From assembly GCA_026397475.1 (NCBI GenBank), contig JAPLUT010000005.1, positions 124,001 to 188,000 on the forward strand: a stretch of DNA of 64,000 bases, read 5' to 3'. A model generated the notes under the pieces. The model did no database searches. It saw only the letters and a list, made by a program, of their open reading frames with translations, and was not told the origin of the DNA. The translations under genes were made by a program, and so were the position numbers. Origin of the DNA: a candidate division SR1 bacterium. GTDB taxonomy: Bacteria; Patescibacteriota; Gracilibacteria; Absconditabacterales; Absconditicoccaceae. Shown one piece after another: positions 9,733 through 50,669 of the stretch. The stretch's first letter is position 1; every line of letters starts with the position of its first letter.

Positions 9733-10818
9733 CTATACTATTTCTCCTGCTTCAGCGAGTGCTTCAGCAGCGTCTTCTTCTATATCATGTTCTACTGCTA
9801 TAAGTGCTTCGTCGTCAAGAACTTTCTTTCACATCCTCATTTCTTTGATCTTATTTTGAATATCTTTTTCTAGACTCGCCCTTGTTTTTGAATCACTATC
9901 AAGCGCAGCCACAAATTTTTCTTTACCTTGGAATTTTTGCTTACCGAAGGTATAGAATGCTCCTGCCTTGTCAACTAACTTGAGTACACTTGCTGCTTCT
10001 ACAATATCCATGGTTTTATCGTATCAAACACCTCGCTTAACTGGCAATTCTGCTGTCTTGAACGGAGCAGAGATTTTATTTTTTGCAATCTTTATTTTTG
10101 CAAGATATCAAATTTGTTCTTTGTCTAAAAGTAATTTATCTCCTCTACGAATCTCTACTCTTTGAGATGCGAAGAACTTGAGTGCATTTCCTCCAGGAGT
10201 CGTTTCTGGATTACCAAACATGATTCAAATTTTCATACGAATCTGATTGATAAATACACAAGTCGTACCGGTTTTTGCAAGCACTCCTGATAATTTTCTC
10301 AATCCTTGGGACATCATCCTCGCTTGTAATCACATATATGAATCTCCCATATCTCCTTCTACTTCAGCTCTAGGCACTAGTGCAGCTACTGAATCAATAA
10401 CGATAAGTTTAACTGCTCCAGATTTTGCTAATTCTTCAGCAATCTGTAATGCTTGTTCTCAAAAATCTGGTTGTGAAAGCAAAAGATTATCAACATCTAC
10501 TCAAAGCTTTCTGGCATATTGAGGATCAAGCGCATGTTCTGCATCTATGAATGCGGCAGTCTCTCCTCTCTTTTGAATTTCTGCGATCGCATGTAATGCA
10601 ATAGTAGTTTTACCTGATGATTCTGGTCCATAAATTTCTACGACCCTTCCTTCAGGATATCCTCATCCTAAAATAAGATCAAGTACATAGGATCAGCTGT
10701 GAAATGTACTTACAAGACCTACATTTGCATTATCCCCCATTCTCATAATGGCACCTTTTCCGAATTGTTTTTCAATACTTTTAAACGCTTCCTGTAACTC
10801 TTGTTTTTTTGTTGTCAT
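9733..10818 (-). CDS. recA: Recombinase RecA
   Basis: A 361-residue RecA, close to the usual length. It forms ATP-dependent filaments on single-stranded DNA for strand exchange and activates LexA self-cleavage. Visible motifs: GKGAIMRMG near the start, Walker [22 protein letters not shown] (Walker B), [10 protein letters not shown], and [18 protein letters not shown]. The run LILGGGYPEG contains TGA codons at conserved glycines. The C-terminus is acidic ([17 protein letters not shown]), as is typical. It is divergent from the four-helix-bundle/lexA unit across about 330 bp that holds repeated TTGAC half-sites. Confidence 0.97.
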
Positions 10819-11012: not shown

Positions 11013-11059
11013 GTCAAAAATAGCATTGATTTTGTCAAAATTTACTTGACACCGTCAAG
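11013..11059. promoter_or_regulatory. Candidate LexA operator cluster between recA and lexA
   Basis: GTCAA at 11013 and 11034, then CTTGAC-ACC-GTCAAG at 11045-11059, a perfect 6-bp dyad with a 3-nt spacer that overlaps the -35 box of the rightward promoter. GTCAA at 11034 and TTGAC at 11046 also form a dyad with a 7-nt spacer. The position between recA and lexA makes SOS regulation plausible. The rest of the region between 10819 and 11085 holds no gene. Confidence 0.45.
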
Positions 11060-11073
11060 GAGAAAAATATAAT
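11046..11073 (+). promoter_or_regulatory. Consensus promoter for four-helix-bundle gene and lexA
   Basis: TTGACA (11046-11051), a 16-nt spacer and TATAAT (11068-11073). It reads toward the gene at 11151 and then lexA at 11590. Confidence 0.7.
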
Positions 11074-11084
11074 CAACATTATGA

Positions 11085-11121
11085 AGATTAAAAAAATATT
11101 AAGATTAAAATATTAATACGC
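11085..11121 (+). repeat. Left AT-rich repeat arm of four-helix-bundle cassette 1
   Basis: A run of 'agattaaaa/tattaa' units lies just before the gene at 11151. It is the approximate reverse complement of the arm at 11541-11585 (aaaatcttttaatattatta...). Together they bracket the four-helix-bundle gene as an imperfect inverted repeat. Confidence 0.5.
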
Positions 11122-11150
11122 GAAAATTTAGTAGATAACAATATGTGAAA

Positions 11151-11540
11151 ATGATAATTACGCAATTTGAGGACATGGAAATTTGGAAGAATGCTATAGA
11201 ACTTTCAATGATTATCTACAAAACTACAAATCAAGGCGAATTTAAAAAAGATTTTTGACTTAGAGATCAAATAAGAAGAGCTGCAAATTCTGTTAGCAGC
11301 AATATTGTAGAATGATTCGAAAGACAAAATAATAATGAATTTATTAGATTCTTGAAAATAGCAAAATGAAGTTGCGGTGAGGTCAGGAACCAAACATATA
11401 TTGCTTTAAATGCCTGACATGTAAACGAATCAAACTTTGAAATTCTTAGAAACTCCTCTCTCGCTCTATCCAAACAAATCTCATGATTTATTAAGTATCT
11501 CGAGAATAATAGGAAACAATGAAACTTCAAAACAAAATAA
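11151..11540 (+). CDS. Four-helix-bundle protein, S23/IVS type
   Basis: 129 residues matching the four-helix-bundle family first found in 23S rRNA intervening sequences: FEDMEIWKNAIELS at the start, then RDQIRRAANSVSSNIVEGFER, then EFIRFLKIAKGSCGEVRNQ. Glycines in VEGFER and AKGSCGE are TGA codons. The biochemical role of free-standing members is unknown; relatives include the accessory protein of diversity-generating retroelements, but no reverse transcriptase is seen here. A paralogue lies at 19476-19841. Both are bracketed by imperfect inverted repeats. ATG 11151 chosen because the upstream ATG reads straight into TAA. Confidence 0.85.
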
Positions 11541-11585
11541 CAAAATCTTTTAATATTATTAATCTTTTAATTTTTTAATCAATAC
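11541..11585 (-). repeat. Right AT-rich repeat arm of four-helix-bundle cassette 1
   Basis: aaaatcttttaatattatta followed by atcttttaattttttaatc, an approximate reverse complement of the left arm at 11085-11121. Confidence 0.5.
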
Positions 11586-11589
11586 TATT

Positions 11590-12204
11590 ATGAAAGAGTT
11601 AGACAACATCCAAAAAGCGCTCATTGCCTTTTTCAAAAGGAATACTAACCAAGAATGAATTACTCTCAGAGAAATAGCTAATAATATCTGAGCAGGACAT
11701 CCTCAAACGGTACTCAACAAACTCAATCAACTCGTACTCAAATGATATTTTGCAAAAGATGATCATGGATATAGATTGATCAGAGAAAGTATCACGGATA
11801 GTTTGAACGATATCGTTCAGCTTCCTATCTATGGTTTCGCCCAATGTGGAAATAAATGAAAAAAAGTTGTCGACGAATATTCACAAGAAAAAATCCCTGT
11901 CACCATGGCAATGCTTTGAGTTAAGGACATTGCGACTTGCTTCTTTGTAAGAGCAAAAGGAAATAGTATGGAACCAAAAATACAAAGTGGCGATTTGGTA
12001 TTAATCAAACAACAGCCAAGTTACGATATGAACGATTATGTTTTCGTGATTCACAATGATCTCCCGAAATTAAAAAAAATCATCAAAAAAGAAGGAAAGC
12101 TCTATTTGGAATCTGTGAATAGATTTTTTGATAATGTCGAGGTGAGTAAGTATGATGAGACGAAAGTTATCGGGGTTGTGAAGAAGATCATTAAGGATGT
12201 GTAA
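11590..12204 (+). CDS. lexA: LexA-like SOS repressor
   Basis: 204 residues. The N-terminal helix-turn-helix TLREIANNIGAGHPQTVLNKL binds DNA. The S24 peptidase domain has Ser126 in AKGNSMEP and Lys162 in LPKLKKI, the catalytic pair. The self-cleavage site is predicted at Cys86-Gly87 in YGFAQCGNKG, in place of the Ala-Gly of E. coli LexA; position and spacing fit the family. TGA glycines occur in the HTH and at NKG. It follows the four-helix-bundle gene on the same strand, about 50 bp downstream, and recA is divergent. A phage-type S24 repressor is the alternative, but the recA neighbourhood favours LexA. Confidence 0.88.
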
Positions 12205-19436: not shown

Positions 19437-19437
19437 A

Positions 19438-19475
19438 GTCGAAAGTCTGTAAGGTCTAAAAGTCGAAAGTCGTAT
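19438..19475 (+). repeat. Left arm of four-helix-bundle cassette 2 (AGTCGAA repeats)
   Basis: GAAAGTCTGTAAGGTCTAAA then AGTCGAAAGTCG. The reverse complement of the arm at 19860-19903 reads GTCTATAAAGTCAAAGG then TCCGTAAAGTCGAAAGTCG, so the two arms form an imperfect inverted repeat around the gene. The same AGTCGAA/AAAGTCA units occur inside uvrA at 34743-34822. Confidence 0.7.
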
Positions 19476-19841
19476 TTAAGTGGTTTGGTGTAAGTATGTT
19501 ATAAATTTAGATATCATTTTTGAAATCTCAACACAAAGAGCACTTATTTCCGTAAAATCTTTTTCTTGTATATATCATTGATCATATGCTATATATAATT
19601 GAGACCTAACTTCTCAACAAGATCATTTAGCGATAAATAAAAATTGTTTAAACTCCTTATCTGTATTTCTTTCAAATCACTCAGCAATATTACTTACTAT
19701 AGAAACAGATGCTCTTCTTATTTGGTCCCTCAATCATCGATCTTTATTAAAGTTATCTGAACGAGTTATTTCGTAAATTCTATTTGTTAACTCTCTTCAC
19801 TTTTTCCATGCCTGAATGTCTTCAAATGTTTCTATTTTCAT
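19476..19841 (-). CDS. Four-helix-bundle protein, S23/IVS type (second copy)
   Basis: 121 residues, same family as 11151-11540: FEDIQAWKKGRELTN, RDQIRRASVSIVSNIAEGFER, KQFLFIAKGSCGEVRSQLYIA. TGA codons give the glycines of AEGFER, AKGSCGE and DQGY, so no ORF over 60 residues is seen in the standard code. It sits between sufS and the deaminase gene with an inverted repeat at its two ends, like a cassette inserted between two unrelated genes. Function unknown. Confidence 0.85.
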
Positions 19842-19859
19842 TATATATTATTAATGATA

Positions 19860-19903
19860 TAAAAACGACTTTCGACTTTACGGACCTTTGACTTTATAGA
19901 CTG
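19860..19903 (-). repeat. Right arm of four-helix-bundle cassette 2
   Basis: CGACTTTCGACTTTACGGAC then CTTTGACTTTATAGAC, the inverted partner of 19438-19475. It ends two bases before the stop of the deaminase gene. Confidence 0.7.
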
Positions 19904-19904
19904 T

Positions 19905-26606: not shown

Positions 26607-27107
26607 TTAGTTCATGCTTACAGTTTCTCAAATCGTCGGTATAACTCAATCATCCAAAAAAACTTCGTTTCACTCATTTTTTTGGCGGTTGAGTATATCT
26701 TTTAATCCTCTTTCCAAAATAAGCATCGCACTTACCGTATCTTCAGCGGCATTTTTTTTGAAATTTGAAGTAATTTCACCGGATTGGACACTGGTGTAAT
26801 CTTCCTCAACGAGCTGGATTTCTATTTCTCTATTTTCAATAATGTATCCGAGGCTTTTCATAAATCCTTGAATTTTTGCTTGGATATCTTTTTGCTTGCT
26901 GGGTCGTCAGAGCATGATTTTTCCGACATTATGTTTTTCGATAATACCTGCGACATTGAAATACATCATCTGATCATTGAGGATGTATCCTACAGGAAAA
27001 ATTACGTCGCTTCCTGGAAGTGCGTATGCTAAACCTATATATCTCGTTCATCGATCGATACCGAGGATAGATTTAGTTTTGCGGTGATTTGTTTGCATAA
27101 AAGACAT
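26607..27107 (-). CDS. ruvX: RuvX/YqgF-type Holliday junction resolvase-like nuclease
   Basis: 166 residues with an RNase-H fold: SILGIDRGTRYIGLAYA (family D-x-GT-x-x-x-G motif, with the Gly of DRG written TGA), KIMLGRPSKQ, VEEDYTSVQSGEITSNF, and AAEDTVSAMLILE with the second acidic pair. Members mature pre-16S rRNA ends and have been linked to Holliday junction processing. The N-terminus carries about 12 extra residues; a second Met follows at position 4. The neighbour on the same strand is tsaB, another essential translation-related gene, with a heptamer element between them. Confidence 0.85.
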
Positions 27108-27217
27108 AATTAACAATTAACAATTAAAAATTAATAATTAATAATGATGGGATATCTTTGTATTAAAAAATATACCAACATTATTCATTTTTCATTATTC
27201 ATCTTTCATTAATTCAT
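27108..27217. repeat. About 105-bp heptamer element between ruvX and tsaB
   Basis: TAACAAT-TAACAAT-TAAAAAT-TAATAAT-TAATAAT on the left, a core with GATGGGATATC and AAAAAATATACC, then TTCATTT-TTCATTA-TTCATCT-TTCATTA on the right. The right array is the approximate reverse complement of the left. The tsaB stop lies in the right array. Confidence 0.75.
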
Positions 27218-33980: not shown

Positions 33981-34119
33981 TTTGGAATTTATATATTCTC
34001 CTTCAAAATTATATTCAATTTTGATTGAAGAATATATACTTACCAACCCAATAATTTCTCATTACATATCGAACTTATCTGATTGGTAAACTACAAATTT
34101 AAATTTGGAATTTATAACC
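33981..34119. repeat. AT-rich repeat/dyad region before uvrA
   Basis: TTTGGAATTTATATATTC recurs as AAATTTGGAATTTATAACC next to the uvrA start, and GAATATATActtac faces TATATTCTCC. It has the look of the heptamer elements but the units are degenerate. No gene seen. Confidence 0.45.
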
Positions 34120-37100
34120 ATGGCAAAGAAAACAGCTGATAAACATATCATCCAAAACGTCGGAAATATGGAAAATAAAATCACCTTCCAGTGAGTAAAG
34201 ACGCACAATTTGAAAAATATAGACATCGAGATCCCGAAAAATAAGTTGATTAGCATCACCTGAGTTTCTGGTTCTGGAAAGTCCTCTCTAGCCTTCGATA
34301 CGATTTATAAAGAAGGACAGTATAGATATATCGAATCTCTTAGCTCATATCTAAGACAGTTTTTTAATTTATGAGAAAGACCAGAAATTGATCATTGTAG
34401 CGGACTTTCGCCTGCCATAGCAATTGAGCAAAACAAGAAAGCTGGAAACTCAAGAAGCTCCGTTGGGACACTTACAGAGATAGACGACTATCTTAGGTTA
34501 TTATACGCAAAGCTCGGCGATAGTTATTGTTATAACTGTGGAAAGGAAATTAAACCACAGACGATTGAGCAGATTATGACTGATATTCAAGACCACTATA
34601 TGAAACAAAAAATATATCTCTTACAAGAATCTGGAAAGTTTGAAAAGAAAGAAAACCTTGTTGAATTTGTTAAAAAAAATAGAAATAAAGTAGAAAAGTG
34701 AAAATGATTTACCCGTTATTTGCTTGTCGCAGACAACTTAGTCCCTAAAGTCGAAAGTCAAAAGTCAAAAGTCAAAAAAAGTGTCGACCTTACGACCTGA
34801 TGACTTGAAGGACCTTCGACTAAATTAGATCCGATTGAGTATTTCTATCTAGAAACACCTAATGTCCCTGCCGAATATTTCCCGCTTAATGCCTATGGTA
34901 TTTATGATCGTGTGACCGTAGAAGATGAAAAAATGGGAAGACTAAAAGAAGATATTATCAAGATACTCGCAGAGTTTAAAAAGTTTGGAATCTACATTAC
35001 TGAGAACTCAAGTAAAAAAGCTAAAGTAAAAAATGAAATCCATCGGTTTACAGATAAGATGTATTGTCCTGACTGTAATATAACGTATCCTGAATTTACT
35101 CCGCAACATTTTTCTCCCAATAGACAAGAATGAGCATGTAGCACATGTCACGGTATCGGAGAAATTCTGCAGATAGATTTTGATAAGATGCTCGACCCCG
35201 TAAGCCCGTATATGAAGGCGATTTTGCCATGGAGAGATTCGAATCTCGGGCAATCATTACTTTTGAAATTATCACAAAAATACAGTATCGATCCTGATAA
35301 ACTTTGGAAAGATTTGCCGGAATGGTTTCAACATGTAGTTCTCTTCTGAGATGAAGAGCTCCTTAGAGTAAACTATGGCGGAAAATTTATTAGTATGACC
35401 TACAAGTGAATCGAAGAAATCATCAAGGACCAATATGCGAAATGACTCTTGACCGTAGATTTCCAAGCGATGTTGAATATGAGGGATTGTAATGAATGTC
35501 ATGGAACGAAATTAAAAAAAGAAAGTTTGAATGTATTCTTAACATTTAAATTGGGAACAGGGAGCAAGGAGCAGGGAGCAGGAAAACTGAGACTTGGAAC
35601 CTGAAACCTGGAACCTGTAACCAAGTTTAATATCGCGGACTTACAAAGACAACCGCTTAATGAATTAATCACCTTCGTGGATCTCTATAAAGAACATGCA
35701 AGTAAAGCAGAAACATTGCTTCAGAGAATAATCAACCCGCTAAATGATAGAGCAAAAACTATTCAAGAACTAGGACTAGGATATCTCAGTCTGCATAGGG
35801 GAATAGATACACTTTCGGGAGGAGAAATTCAAAGATTGAGACTAGCGAAACAGCTATGAAATAAATTGACGGGGATTATTTACGTACTTGATGAACCGAC
35901 GATTGGACTCGATGATAAAGAGATTCAAAGAGCTATCACGGCGATAAAAAATTTGAGAGAAATGGGAAATACCATCGTCGTTGTAGAACATAATGAAACC
36001 TTTATCAAAGCTTCTGACCGAGTGGTAGAGATTTGACCGGGCGCTGGAGACTTTGGTTGAAACCTTATGTTTAACGGAACCTATGATGATTTTCTAAAGT
36101 CTGATACGCTTACTGCGCAATACATTCTTGGCAAGAAAAAAGTATCGATTAATTTTGAACATACACCAAGTAATAATGTTATAAAAATAAAAAAAGCCTC
36201 GAAGTTCAATCTCCAAGGTATTGATGTTCAGATTAAATTATGAACCTTTACCATCATCACATGACCGTCAGGAGCTGGGAAAACTACGCTCATGTATACA
36301 ACCTTGTTTAAATTTTTGAATGACAAACAAAAGTTTATCCAGAGCTTTATCAGATTGGAACTTTTGAAAAAATGACGAAGCTGGCAAGACATTCTTGCTG
36401 CACCCGTCATGAATAAAGAAAAATATGAACATTATGAAAACTTAGCGCTGCAAGAATTTCATAAAGACTTAGGCGTAGAAACGATCATCGGGCATGAAGA
36501 GATTAAAAATACTATTTATGTCGACCAAACGAGCATCGGAAAAACACCAAGATCTTGTCCTGCTACCTTTATCGGAACTTTTGATCATATCAGACAGTTG
36601 TATGCAGGAACCATGGAGAGTAAATATTTATGATTCAACTCAAGCTATTTCAGCTTCAACTCTGCTAAGTGAGCTTGCCCTGCTTGTGATGGATATGGAT
36701 ACAAAAAAATAGAATTACAATTTCTTCCTGACACCTACATCCCTTGCGAACTTTGTCAGGGGAAAAGATATAAGACAGAAATTTTGTGAATCAAACGAAG
36801 AGGAAAAACTATTTCTGAGATTCTTGGAATGTATGTGAAAGACGCCTTAGAATTGTTCTCTGAAATCGACCATATCCGCGAAGAATTGGAACTTATGGTT
36901 AAAATCGGGCTTGGGTATTTGAGAATGGGGCAACCGGCGCATACGCTTTCTGGTTGAGAAAGTCAGAGATTGAAACTTGTAAAACATTTATTGAAGTCGT
37001 ATAAGGGACACACGATGTACTTTTTAGATGAGCCGACCGTGGGATTGCATTCTGAGGATATTGTAAAATTATTGAAAGTGATCAAAGAATTTTTGGATAA

Positions 37101-37194
37101 AGGCGACACTATTCTGATGATTGAACACGACAAGAGTATTTTGAAATTCGCAGATGAGGTAATTAGACTAGAAAATGGGAAATTAGTGAAATAA
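34120..37194 (+). CDS. uvrA: Excinuclease ABC subunit A
   Basis: 1024 residues, ABC-type ATPase that scans DNA for bulky damage and loads UvrB. First Walker [16 protein letters not shown] near residue 47, zinc cysteines YCYNCGKE and MYCPDCN, CxxC pairs CSTCHG and CNECHG, signature [16 protein letters not shown], then VLDEPTIGL. Second half: Walker [23 protein letters not shown] and [34 protein letters not shown] codons give conserved glycines of both P-loop regions and of SGGE. Two heptamer-repeat tracts are translated in frame (34743-34822 and 35550-35630). A complete and probably functional gene. Confidence 0.96.
34743..34822 (+). repeat. In-frame heptamer element inside uvrA (AAAGTCA family)
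   Basis: AAAGTCG-AAAGTCA-AAAGTCA-AAAGTCA, then a right part CGACCTTACGACC and GAAGGACCTTCGAC that is its imperfect inverted partner. It encodes a Lys/Ser-rich then Gly/Thr-rich insert ([11 protein letters not shown], then LTTGGLEGPS). The units match the arms of cassette 2 at 19438-19903. Confidence 0.8.
35550..35630 (+). repeat. In-frame heptamer tract inside uvrA (GGGAGCA/GGAACCT family)
   Basis: GGGAACA-GGGAGCA-AGGAGCA-GGGAGCA, then GAGACTT-GGAACCT-GAAACCT-GGAACCT. About eight 7-bp units encode [21 protein letters not shown] between the zinc-binding part and the first signature motif. One TGA within it is read as Gly. Confidence 0.8.
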
Positions 37195-38419: not shown

Positions 38420-38448
38420 AAAAAAAATCTCCTTAGGGAGATTTTTTA
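38420..38448 (+). terminator. Terminator of the DUF1846 gene
   Basis: AAAATCTCC and GGAGATTTT form a stem with a 4-nt loop, followed by a T-run. Confidence 0.85.
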
Positions 38449-38552
38449 ATTAATAATTAATAATGAATAATCCCTCGGGACAAGTGTTGGTATTTATTTA
38501 TTAAATCAGCCTTTCACACATTTTTCATTATTCATTTTTCATTATTCATTAG
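38447..38552. repeat. About 105-bp heptamer element, CTCGGGACAAGTGTT core
   Basis: Left array TTAATAA-TTAATAA-TGAATAA, core CCCTCGGGACAAGTGTTGGT followed by an AT-rich stretch, right array TTCATTA-TTCATTT-TTCATTA-TTCATTA. The core recurs nearly unchanged at about 45447-45470. Confidence 0.8.
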
Positions 38553-38556
38553 TTTT

Positions 38557-39258
38557 TTATTTAAACGGTGACTGTGAGCTATGGATCAACGGATTATAAC
38601 AACGGAAGATAAGACTTATAGTGTCTGACGTTCCTATTTTTTCTGCACCGATACCCATACCATTGAGACCTTCAATGATCAGGTTTACTCTCGTGTCCAA
38701 AGAACTTCTTCCTTTGAGAAATTGTCTATATCTTGCAACAACTTTTTCTACGGTATCTTTAGCATTGAGAATATCAAGTAGCTTACTCCATCGAGACTTT
38801 TGTATCTGCCCCTTATCTTGTTCATCTACGTAATAAGGCACGACAATATAAAACTCTTTATTGAAGATCAATCATTGTTGCATATCGATATTTTGAAGGA
38901 ATCTGAAATATGCCTCACCCTGTTTTTTAAGTACAGGATTTTCTATAGGATCGATATTGCCTCTTATGTAATTGAGATAATTTGAAAGATCGAGAAAAGT
39001 GTTGCGAACTACGATCTGAATAGGATATTCCAATCCGTTAAGAAATTTTTTATATTGTTCAAGAACGATTTGTTGTTCATCACCGTTTTTAAGATCAAGA
39101 TTTATTCCGTTTATTTTGAGGATACATCTTAATCCTCAGTCCTTCATAATAATGGTATCATTCCTAATTTCTGATATCGGTAACATAGTCTCTGTATTGA
39201 AGAGATTTTCATGTTTTGGTTTTTGAATTTTGTTTTTTTCTCACATACTGAAGAACAT
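38557..39258 (-). CDS. TraC/VirB4-N-terminal-like secretion protein
   Basis: 233 residues. MLPISEIRNDTIIMKDGGLRCILKINGINLDLKNGDEQQIVLEQYKKFLNGL followed by PIQIVVRNTFLDLSNYLNYI is the pattern of the N-terminal TraC-like domain of type IV secretion ATPases, here as a separate protein without Walker motifs. The last third resembles PYYVDEQDKGQ... with helices. It is the last gene of a minus-strand unit with two VirB2-like pilins (gaps of 23 and 7 bp), which supports a secretion or conjugation role. An ATPase partner is not in the window. Confidence 0.65.
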
Positions 39259-45040: not shown

Positions 45041-45413
45041 TGTTTTTTTTACTTTGTTCAGAGAATAAAAGCACTTGAAGAATAATAAACCCTAGGAGAA
45101 GAATAAGTCAGAGGAACTTACTTCGATATCATAAGAGTAAAAATAAGGCATTGATAAGTACATAAATTCCAAACAGAAGAGAAAGCTTATAACTATCTTT
45201 GATCAAACGCTCTTGGCTTACTTCACGAAAGAATTTCTGGATAGCAAGAAAGAGATAGAAACTTGCTCCTCGCGAAGCTATAAAAAGTCAAAGCATACCT
45301 AGAGATATCCCTATTATAGGATCCTCATACACATTGATTGATGTATAGGTTACTAACAAAATAAGGAGGCCAAGCACGAATTTAATAAGTGATGCTATAT
45401 GATACAAATACAT
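45021..45413 (-). CDS. Small membrane protein, four spans
   Basis: 130 residues. Hydrophobic segments LIKFVLGLLILLVTYTS, IIGISLGMLGLFIASRG, LSLLFGIYVLINALFLLLWY and GLILLLGFIILQVLLF, with charged loops. Three glycines are TGA. No family recognised. It overlaps the DUF59 gene by 20 nt. Confidence 0.7.
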
Positions 45414-45525
45414 TTTAATGAATAATTAATAATGAAAAATGAATAATCTCTCGGGACAAGTGTTTGTATTTTTTTATTTAATAAATATTTTCCATCATTA
45501 TTCGTTGTTAGTTGTTCACTGTTAG
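45414..45525. repeat. Heptamer element with CTCGGGACAAGTGTT core (second copy)
   Basis: Left array TGAATAA-TTAATAA-TGAAAAA-TGAATAA, core CTCTCGGGACAAGTGTTTGT and an AT-rich stretch, right array CATTATTCGTTGTTAGTTG then TTCACTGTTAG. The stop of the next gene lies in the right array. Confidence 0.8.
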
Positions 45526-50039: not shown

Positions 50040-50139
50040 TTACAATATTAAAAGATTATTAAGATTAAAAGATTTGTAGTGAAGCAATAAAGTCGGAATA
50101 TTTTAATTTTTCAATGTTTTAATCTTTTAATCTAAAAGC
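50040..50139. repeat. AT-rich inverted heptamer-type element before recX
   Basis: TATTAAAAGATTATTAAGAT then TAAAAGATTT, a GC-richer core (GTAGTGAAGCAATAAAGTCG), then TTTTAATTTTTC and TTTTAATCTTTTAATCTAAA. The outer parts are approximate reverse complements and resemble the arms of cassette 1. Confidence 0.65.
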
Positions 50140-50571
50140 ATGAAATGCCTCGACTACGCTCTTAAATATATCTACCGTTATCCTAAAACCGAAAAAGAGT
50201 TGAGAATTCAACTTTATACGAAAGGACATTCGACGAAAGATATAGACCAGACTATAGAAGAACTTAAGAAAAAAAACTATGTAAACGATACTTTATTTGC
50301 AGATAGTTACATCAAAAGCGAAGTCGTCAATAAAGGGAGACCTGCTATTCGCATTATTTTGAAATTACAACAAAAAGGAGTTCCCCAGGAGATCATCAAA
50401 GAAATATTAAAAAAATATCAGGAAGATATGGGCGAAGGCATCCATGAAAAAATAAAAAAAGAAATCGCAGCATACAAAAAAAGAGATGTAGATGGGTTTG
50501 ATATTATCCAGAAATTAATGAGGAAGTGATATAAATTAGATGATATTAAAAAAGTCATACAGAGCAAATAA
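50140..50571 (+). CDS. recX: Regulatory protein RecX
   Basis: 143 residues made of helical repeats: CLDYALKYIYRYPKTEKELRIQLYTKGHS, DIDQTIEELKKKNYVNDTLFADSYIK, GRPAIRIILKLQQKGVPQEII. RecX inhibits RecA filaments. It is 40 kb from recA. The last 17 residues follow a TGA glycine (MRKGYKLDDIKKVIQSK), which completes a third repeat. Confidence 0.88.
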
Positions 50572-50669
50572 AACAATTTGAAATTTGAAATTTATAATTT
50601 GAAATTTTGAAACACTGTTAGTGAGTTTTAAAATTGTAAATTTCGCCTTTAAAATTTAAAATTACTCCA
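50572..50669. repeat. AATTTGA heptamer element before yebC
   Basis: AATTTGA-AATTTGA-AATTTAT-AATTTGA-AATTTTG, a core with AACACTGTTAGTGAGTTTT, then AAATTTCGCCTTTAAAATTT and AAAATTACTCC. The right part approximates the reverse complement of the left. Confidence 0.75.

Follow-up and report, generated by a model that had tools for sequence, protein, structure and literature searches.

A probable small mobile element composed of an S23 gene and inverted arrays of an element-specific heptamer

How does a gene of the protein family encoded in rRNA intervening sequences (IVS) come to lie between recA and lexA, and what are the AT-rich arms that bracket it? To our knowledge, no function is known for the genes that are annotated as "four helix bundle protein" or "S23 ribosomal protein" and are spread over many phyla of bacteria. 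Heptamer repeats in unrelated bacteria have been attributed to slippage, G-quadruplexes or unknown regulators. We analysed such a gene, here cassette 1, and its counterparts, starting from the window (the whole 64-kb stretch of DNA) in a genome of 1.17 Mb in eight contigs (G000), in which TGA is read as glycine (code 25). The first-pass annotation had read the locus as a possible free-living form of the rRNA element. Coordinates are collected in Table 1.

Cassette 1 in the lexA leader

The assignment to the S23/IVS type was borne out, as the protein of cassette 1 scored above the curated thresholds of both Pfam PF05635 (E = 1.8e-33, 115.3 bits; cut-off 33.8) and TIGR02436 (110.6 bits; cut-off 24). 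The two arms, claimed to be approximate reverse complements, are 81% complementary over 31 nt (11084-11114 versus 11544-11574), and the local inverted alignment of the two 130-nt flanks has a score of 40. Dinucleotide shuffling of the two flanks never reached this value in 5000 rounds (mean 19.5, maximum 35), and the arms are thus more complementary than shuffled AT-rich DNA. The best score was 35 among 1152 equally spaced control pairs in the window and 26 among 52 ordinary genes.

The location between recA and lexA also held and can be refined, in that the cassette separates the promoter of lexA from the start codon. It begins 10 nt past the -10 box and is therefore within the lexA leader; relatives have the same layout of promoter and operator 5' of lexA. 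As far as the sequence can tell, the lexA promoter now drives both cassette 1 and lexA, and because of this position the S23 gene is probably under SOS control.

Table 1. Coordinates of the features in the window
Feature	Position	Strand	Basis or remark
recA	9733-10818	-	ORF under code 25
lexA promoter and likely LexA operator (TTGTCAA...TTGACA)	11033..11073	+	-35 TTGACA 11046-11051, -10 TATAAT 11068-11073
Cassette 1, upstream arm	11084..11116	+	word about AAGATTA; arm alignment, shuffle test, fold
Cassette 1, S23 / four-helix-bundle gene	11145..11540	+	code-25 ORF, 131 aa; start GTG 11145 or ATG 11151
Cassette 1, downstream arm (reverse complement of upstream arm)	11544..11580	+	arm alignment, shuffle test, fold
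lexA	11590..12204	+	3' of cassette 1; orthologues in 6 genus relatives
Cassette 2, downstream arm	19437..19475	-	word AAAGTC; own-arm score 37
Cassette 2, S23 gene (neighbours tadA-like and sufS-like)	19476..19841	-	ORF, PF05635, genus comparison
Cassette 2, upstream arm	19865..19904	-	word AAAGTC
Gene-less inverted heptad element	27096..27215	.	intergenic gap scan, period-7 scan
Gene-less heptad insert in uvrA, translated	34736..34830	.	word AAAGTC; downstream limit by eye
Gene-less inverted heptad insert in uvrA, translated	35545..35627	.	GGAGCAG / CAGGTTC
Gene-less inverted heptad element	38437..38563	.	intergenic gap scan, period-7 scan
Gene-less inverted heptad element	45409..45521	.	core resembles that of 38437-38563
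Gene-less inverted element	50040..50139	.	same word as cassette 1 (AAGATTA)
Gene-less inverted heptad element, recX-yebC gap	50571..50669	.	full S23 cassette there in G006, G008

Arms and their genes across phyla

PF05635 matches were present in 24 of the 41 genomes searched, eight of them in G000 and up to 13 in a single genome. The 130 matches in this home-clade sample gave 96 cassettes, of which 92 were used and four (L035, L050, L075 and L089) were dropped for short flanks or a missing start or stop. Across the 92, own arms had a mean score of 28.1, versus 16.9 for arms swapped between cassettes, and the highest value in 20000 permutations was 18.8. A cross-phylum sample of 80 loci, picked by protein patterns alone from one-per-species genomes, yielded 71 usable cassettes (nine were dropped) with scores of 34.4 for own and 16.4 for swapped arms (permutation maximum 19.4). 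Judged by record title, these came from Patescibacteria, Planctomycetota, Bacteroidota, Fibrobacter, Omnitrophota, Clostridia, Acidobacteria, Synergistaceae, Nitrospirota, Verrucomicrobiota, Proteobacteria and others.

Flank shuffling was applied to the cross-phylum loci and to 91 home-clade cassettes (one more was dropped for unread bases), made up of 87 cassettes and four linked to reverse transcriptases. Arms were significant (p<=0.05) in 60 of the 87 and in 61 of the 71 cross-phylum loci; the remaining 27 and 10, respectively, had no significant arms by this test. None of the four weak PF05635 matches beside reverse transcriptases (L008, L030, L031 and L090) had significant arms, and since these are Avd-like homologues, the arms belong to free-standing S23 genes and not to the fold as such. 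The L008 locus (G000:C7:29309-30829), a reverse transcriptase with an Avd-like gene 3' of it, is probably a diversity-generating retroelement (DGR).

Both arms show a period of 7, with echoes at 14 and 21, that was not found in 488 control windows and that is stronger outside Patescibacteria than in the home clade. Alignment of 70 arrays gave the heptamer consensus nnnTAGK, with a likelihood of 76.5 versus at most 64.1 when phases were shuffled; the most constant positions are the A, the G and the T/G, within arrays and between arrays alike.

For cyanobacterial plasmids, 12 of 34 matching records were read, together with one second site. The 12 cassettes had own-arm scores of 56, 56, 19, 10, 63, 52, 60, 19, 46, 29, 15 and 30, the first two being copies on two plasmids of one strain, and the swapped-arm mean was 18.5. 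In the Pseudanabaena cassette L248 the arms are direct, not inverted. Three of the plasmid cassettes (L248, L250 and L254) lie within CRISPR-Cas operons, twice between cas6 and cas4 and once between cas10 and cmr3.

Several other loci are noted in passing. In place of plain heptamers, L087 (G006:C21:6580-6882) has arms made of ACCACCCGGGTGG-type palindromes, and its own-arm score, 49, is among the highest. In three Bacteroidetes (L156, L147 and L161) the cassette is immediately 5' of an sdhB-like gene by ORF reading, possibly a recurrent insertion site. In Vreelandella sedimenti (L184) a cassette lies between rmlB-like and rmlD-like genes, also named from ORF reading, and a heptad-like array inside the rmlD gene is translated in frame.

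Kinship with the rRNA elements raises the possibility that the cassettes act as RNA: the arms would pair in the transcript, RNase III would cut the stem, and the S23 segment would be freed from the operon mRNA, so that the stem is what is needed. The protein family is the same, and the inverted terminal repeats of cassette 1 can close a stem round the S23 ORF, with 28 bp joining the arms (11086-11116 / 11550-11580) in the predicted fold of a 530-nt transcript. Own-arm duplexes are also stronger than swapped ones (-40.4 versus -28.4). The accessible text of PMC4990558 describes a Coxiella rRNA element whose 28-bp stem is cut by RNase III and which has tandem heptamers (GACAGAT) 5' of its ORF. 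However, the total fold energy of the 530-nt transcript equals that of shuffled sequence (z = -0.01). Moreover, arm mismatches in the sense RNA of 58 elements were of the G-U type in 54 cases and of the A-C type in 63, with no excess of G-U; the duplexes are as stable in the antisense as in the sense strand (-40.7 and -40.4); and some cassettes are inserted antisense within operons. The period of 7, the cassette-specific words and the gene-less copies described below would also be left unexplained. We consider an RNA-level element unlikely, and selection on the arms as an RNA stem, the role first ascribed to them, is not supported. Given equal mismatch classes, strand-equal duplexes and a fold no better than shuffles, we read the arm pairing as maintained or made at the DNA level; a given stem may also be cut in its transcript.

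A location in 23S rRNA was rejected. The single 23S match of G000 is on contig C4 and is without an IVS-size insert, and none of the eight PF05635 matches is on that contig; no 23S rRNA was found near S23 in 189 loci, by a search that had no positive control across phyla, and Rfam gave no match in 20 S23 loci. Dependence on a reverse transcriptase was rejected as well, as PF00078 is present in 11 of the 41 genomes and missing from 15 of the 24 with PF05635 matches. In G000 the reverse transcriptase matches are at C2:9711-10250 and C7:29309-30025 and cassette 1 is at C2:135169, with no adjacent reverse transcriptase.

Movement, site occupancy and gene-less arrays

The gene lexA was located in seven of the nine genomes compared within the genus. 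An S23 cassette is found between its promoter and start codon in G000, G006, G007 and G008, and the leader is empty in G001 and G002, where the promoter runs directly into lexA. The gene and the word are common to G000 and G007; in G008 the word is different and the gene matches the profile no further than position 69 of 106; in G006 the array is 24 nt long and the S23 gene a distant one. In G005 (L041), an unrelated ORF of about 156 aa occupies the site where the others have a cassette or nothing.

Eight intervals were compared at each of two further sites. Between recX and yebC there are full cassettes in G006 and G008, gene-less inverted elements in G000 and G003, a downstream-type arm alone in G001 and G007, and other inserts in G002 and G005. 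At sufS, full cassettes are present in G000, G006 and G007, G002 retains an arm only, gene-less elements with other words are found in G004, G005 and G008 (the upstream gene of G004 differs), and G001 has a different repeat. The recA-lexA, recX-yebC and tadA-sufS sites are polymorphic within the genus. By reading, the upstream arms at sufS resemble the upstream arms of relatives, and the words are therefore probably inherited and not continuously copied between arms, which disfavours concerted evolution of the two arms. A different repeat family, with TCCTCCTTTACTGAAAGGAGG-type hairpin-like inserts, was noticed at these same intergenic sites in G005 and G002 (L188, L191 and L199).

Filled and empty sites were also compared among the cyanobacterial plasmids. 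In Calothrix brevissima the cassette fills the space from an integrase gene to the following start codon, a site at which Tolypothrix 7601, Aulosira and Nostoc carneum have a 3-nt gap; the insert has heptad arms at its ends and supplies the stop codon of the integrase gene. A cassette found 3' of a traM-like gene in Nostoc C052 and N. edaphicum is absent from two Nostoc C057 plasmids (94.7 and 92.9% identical). N. edaphicum has, in addition, an antisense cassette between nrdB and nrdA, where Calothrix NIES-4105 has none. The comparison at cas6-cas4 was not clean, because the relative has another insert. By eye, no clear target-site duplication was seen in these plasmid comparisons.

The words follow the protein. 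In 115 pairs with a protein score fraction of at least 0.55 and no homology of the flanks on either side, word similarity climbs with protein similarity from 21.5 to 39.9 in the 14 closest pairs, one of which is from within a single genome (L058 and L069, both G007), over a background of about 18. Over all pairs without orthologous downstream flanks, the Mantel correlation between word and protein was 0.160, and the best of 2000 permutations was 0.085. The gene and its arms are the unit that moves. The idea of a free-living IVS thus survives in part: the cassette is free-standing, encodes an IVS-family protein, has an empty counterpart in G001 and G002 and is mobile, but the importance of the arms as an RNA stem does not stand.

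The S23 protein is under strong purifying selection. The dN/dS ratio was 0.06-0.13 in eight computable orthologous pairs (two saturated), among them cassette 1 and its G007 orthologue at 0.13, and 0.11-0.21 in three non-orthologous pairs. No recombinase, nuclease or polymerase was recognisable in the element, the proteins of cassettes 1 and 2 matching only PF05635 and bAvd-like models, and carriage by phages found no support, one query protein having had no match in a phage collection.

Beyond what the first-pass annotation had seen, the arms are heptamer arrays, the pattern extends to many phyla, and there are derivatives without the gene. The window has 14 period-7 arrays. Its intergenic gaps, scanned for inverted heptad elements that lack a gene, gave such elements at 27117-27208, 38420-38556, 45414-45521, 50040-50139 and 50572-50669. 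Within uvrA (34105-37194) the heptad inserts are translated, and the words differ by species at the same loops (AAAGTC, GGAACAG and AAGGAAC); by eye, inserts of this kind, with differing words, are present in five of the six members of the genus that were compared and missing from G001.

At the family level, 20 stretches from nine S23-bearing genomes (400,000 b, all without a PF05635 match in the stretch) contained 42 arrays, of which 12 had an inverted partner, versus one array and no inverted partner in 20 stretches (369,569 b) from eight S23-negative genomes of the same family. At the class level there were 23 arrays per 200,000 b in nine S23-bearing genomes and 4 per 153,885 b in seven S23-negative ones, of which 7 and 1, respectively, were inverted. 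A control genome, that of E. coli K-12, gave no PF05635 match, and a 50-kb stretch from it contained no heptad array. Away from S23 genes this amounts to 65 arrays in 600 kb of S23-bearing genomes and five in 523 kb of relatives lacking S23, and at least one array was present in 17 of 18 versus 3 of 15 genomes by our own tally, these 33 genomes being of one class, partly related and mostly of one genus. The association follows phylogeny in part, yet recurs at the class level. Arrays were found in G017, G032 and G035 despite their S23-negative call; many genomes are incomplete, and the call can therefore be wrong for some. Periods of 5, 6 and 8-11 showed no comparable enrichment, which is confined to period 7. 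When gene-less arrays were compared with cassettes from eight genomes, similarity was somewhat higher to those of the array's own genome than to those of the seven others (mean 20.7 versus 19.2, p 0.003), and the best cassette match was in the own genome for 14 of 53.

These data bear on two further explanations. If the arms were simple repeats made by polymerase slippage, S23 genes would merely settle in or next to them and would neither make nor move them. Bacterial heptamer repeats have been ascribed to slippage in the parts of PMC4679880 and PMC4692102 available to us, where S23 goes unmentioned, and the direct arms of L248 are what insertion into an array would give. We nevertheless regard this as quite improbable, since in nearly all cassettes the arms are inverted and not direct, arrays are rare without S23 and period 7 alone is enriched, the words accompany the protein to new loci, and the filled and empty sites show joint entry of arms and gene. 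A host-beneficial regulator that binds DNA or RNA, with the dispersed arrays as operators spread for regulatory use, would fit the purifying selection, the arrays near gene starts and ends and the proposal, in the available part of PMC2700814, that paired heptanucleotide sites of Geobacter serve an unidentified global regulator, but is very improbable given that a single genome has cassettes with different words, turnover of the sites among congeneric species is rapid, and the uvrA inserts are translated linkers. This evidence leaves room for some regulatory co-option of arrays.

A proposed element class and its known relatives

The explanation that we favour, and think likely, is a small mobile DNA element with one S23 gene and terminal inverted arrays of an element-specific heptamer, in which a multimer of the S23 protein reads its own word. 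The related PDB entries 2gsc and 2rld have five chains each, and a Xanthomonas protein is a pentameric ring according to the accessible text of PMC4990558. The S23 multimer may sit as a ring on repeated short cores, binding its own word at sites 7 nt apart. Ring subunits that each read a core spaced by 7 nt would explain the period, the constant core with its free positions and the requirement for more than one or two repeats in an arm; an analogy for a ring that reads repeated cores is offered by TRAP and its spaced GAG/UAG triplets. The ring would bring both arms together, and host replication or repair, the likely agent since the element has no recombinase, could then copy or join the element, or the arms alone, into permissive gaps 3' of stop codons. 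By inference, the arrays are bound by the S23 protein, which would thus be responsible for their spread.

More tentatively, and with slightly less than even expectation, S23 proteins as a whole may define a widespread class of mobile elements that lack any known recombinase, in which a ring reads an element-specific heptad word and spreads arrays with or without the gene. On this view the rRNA IVS would be one particular instance, inserted in rRNA, Avd would be a relative that reverse transcriptases have taken into service, and the class would have produced the orphan heptamers of Xanthomonas, Nostoc, Beggiatoaceae and Geobacter. S23 genes and heptamer repeats would thereby be joined as one class of mobile element whose mechanism of movement is not obvious, and two open questions, the function of S23 and the origin of the heptamers, can be tested with one protein and one oligonucleotide. 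We know of no element class that combines cassette-specific heptad ends, gene-less derivatives and the lack of a known recombinase. The S23 element with inverted heptamer arrays is apparently undescribed, a link between S23 and heptamers not having been found in searches of open-access papers.

Terminal inverted repeats are shared with DNA transposons and insertion sequences, but the cassette proteins lack a known transposase or recombinase domain. The likeness to REPIN/RAYT systems and MITEs goes further, as these too pair a gene with inverted flanking repeats and many gene-less inverted derivatives; as with MITEs, gene-less copies with the same kind of ends are present in genomes that have the full element. 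The hallmark of those systems, however, is an HUH or DDE transposase, which the S23 element does not have, and its tandem heptad word differs between elements of one genome. The DGR accessory protein Avd (bAvd) is a homologous four-helix bundle, and the protein of cassette 2 reaches 24.1 bits on the bAvd model, short of the cut-off of 40. The cassettes differ in having no adjacent reverse transcriptase, and the four Avd-like genes that do have one are without arms.

Closest are the rRNA IVS of Leptospira and Coxiella, which share the protein family (PF05635) and have inverted terminal repeats round one ORF; classed differently, the S23 element would be a form of rRNA intervening sequence. In contrast to these, the cassettes lie outside rRNA, in operon gaps and in either orientation, have cassette-specific heptad arms in many phyla and gene-less derivatives, and their arms bear no sign of RNA-level selection. 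Since the Coxiella element combines the same family with a 28-bp inverted repeat and heptamers, the rRNA IVS look like members of the class that landed in rRNA.

The orphan heptamers, the cyanobacterial STRR included, resemble S23 arrays in being 7-nt tandem repeats that are mostly intergenic, and inverted pairs are frequent in those of Xanthomonas and Geobacter, as far as the available parts of the sources go. These describe Xanthomonas GGGAATC, with 70 and 75 inverted pairs in two genomes and no association with insertion sequences, as well as Nostoc GGGGA(C/T)T and Beggiatoaceae TAACTGA (PMC4692102, PMC4679880); the same parts, and that of PMC2700814, name no four-helix-bundle protein as responsible. 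We propose that S23 elements gave rise to the arrays of Xanthomonas, Nostoc, Beggiatoaceae and Geobacter. If true, the orphan repeats of Xanthomonas, Nostoc and Geobacter would be explained, and STRR, used as strain-typing repeats in cyanobacteria, may be traces of active elements.
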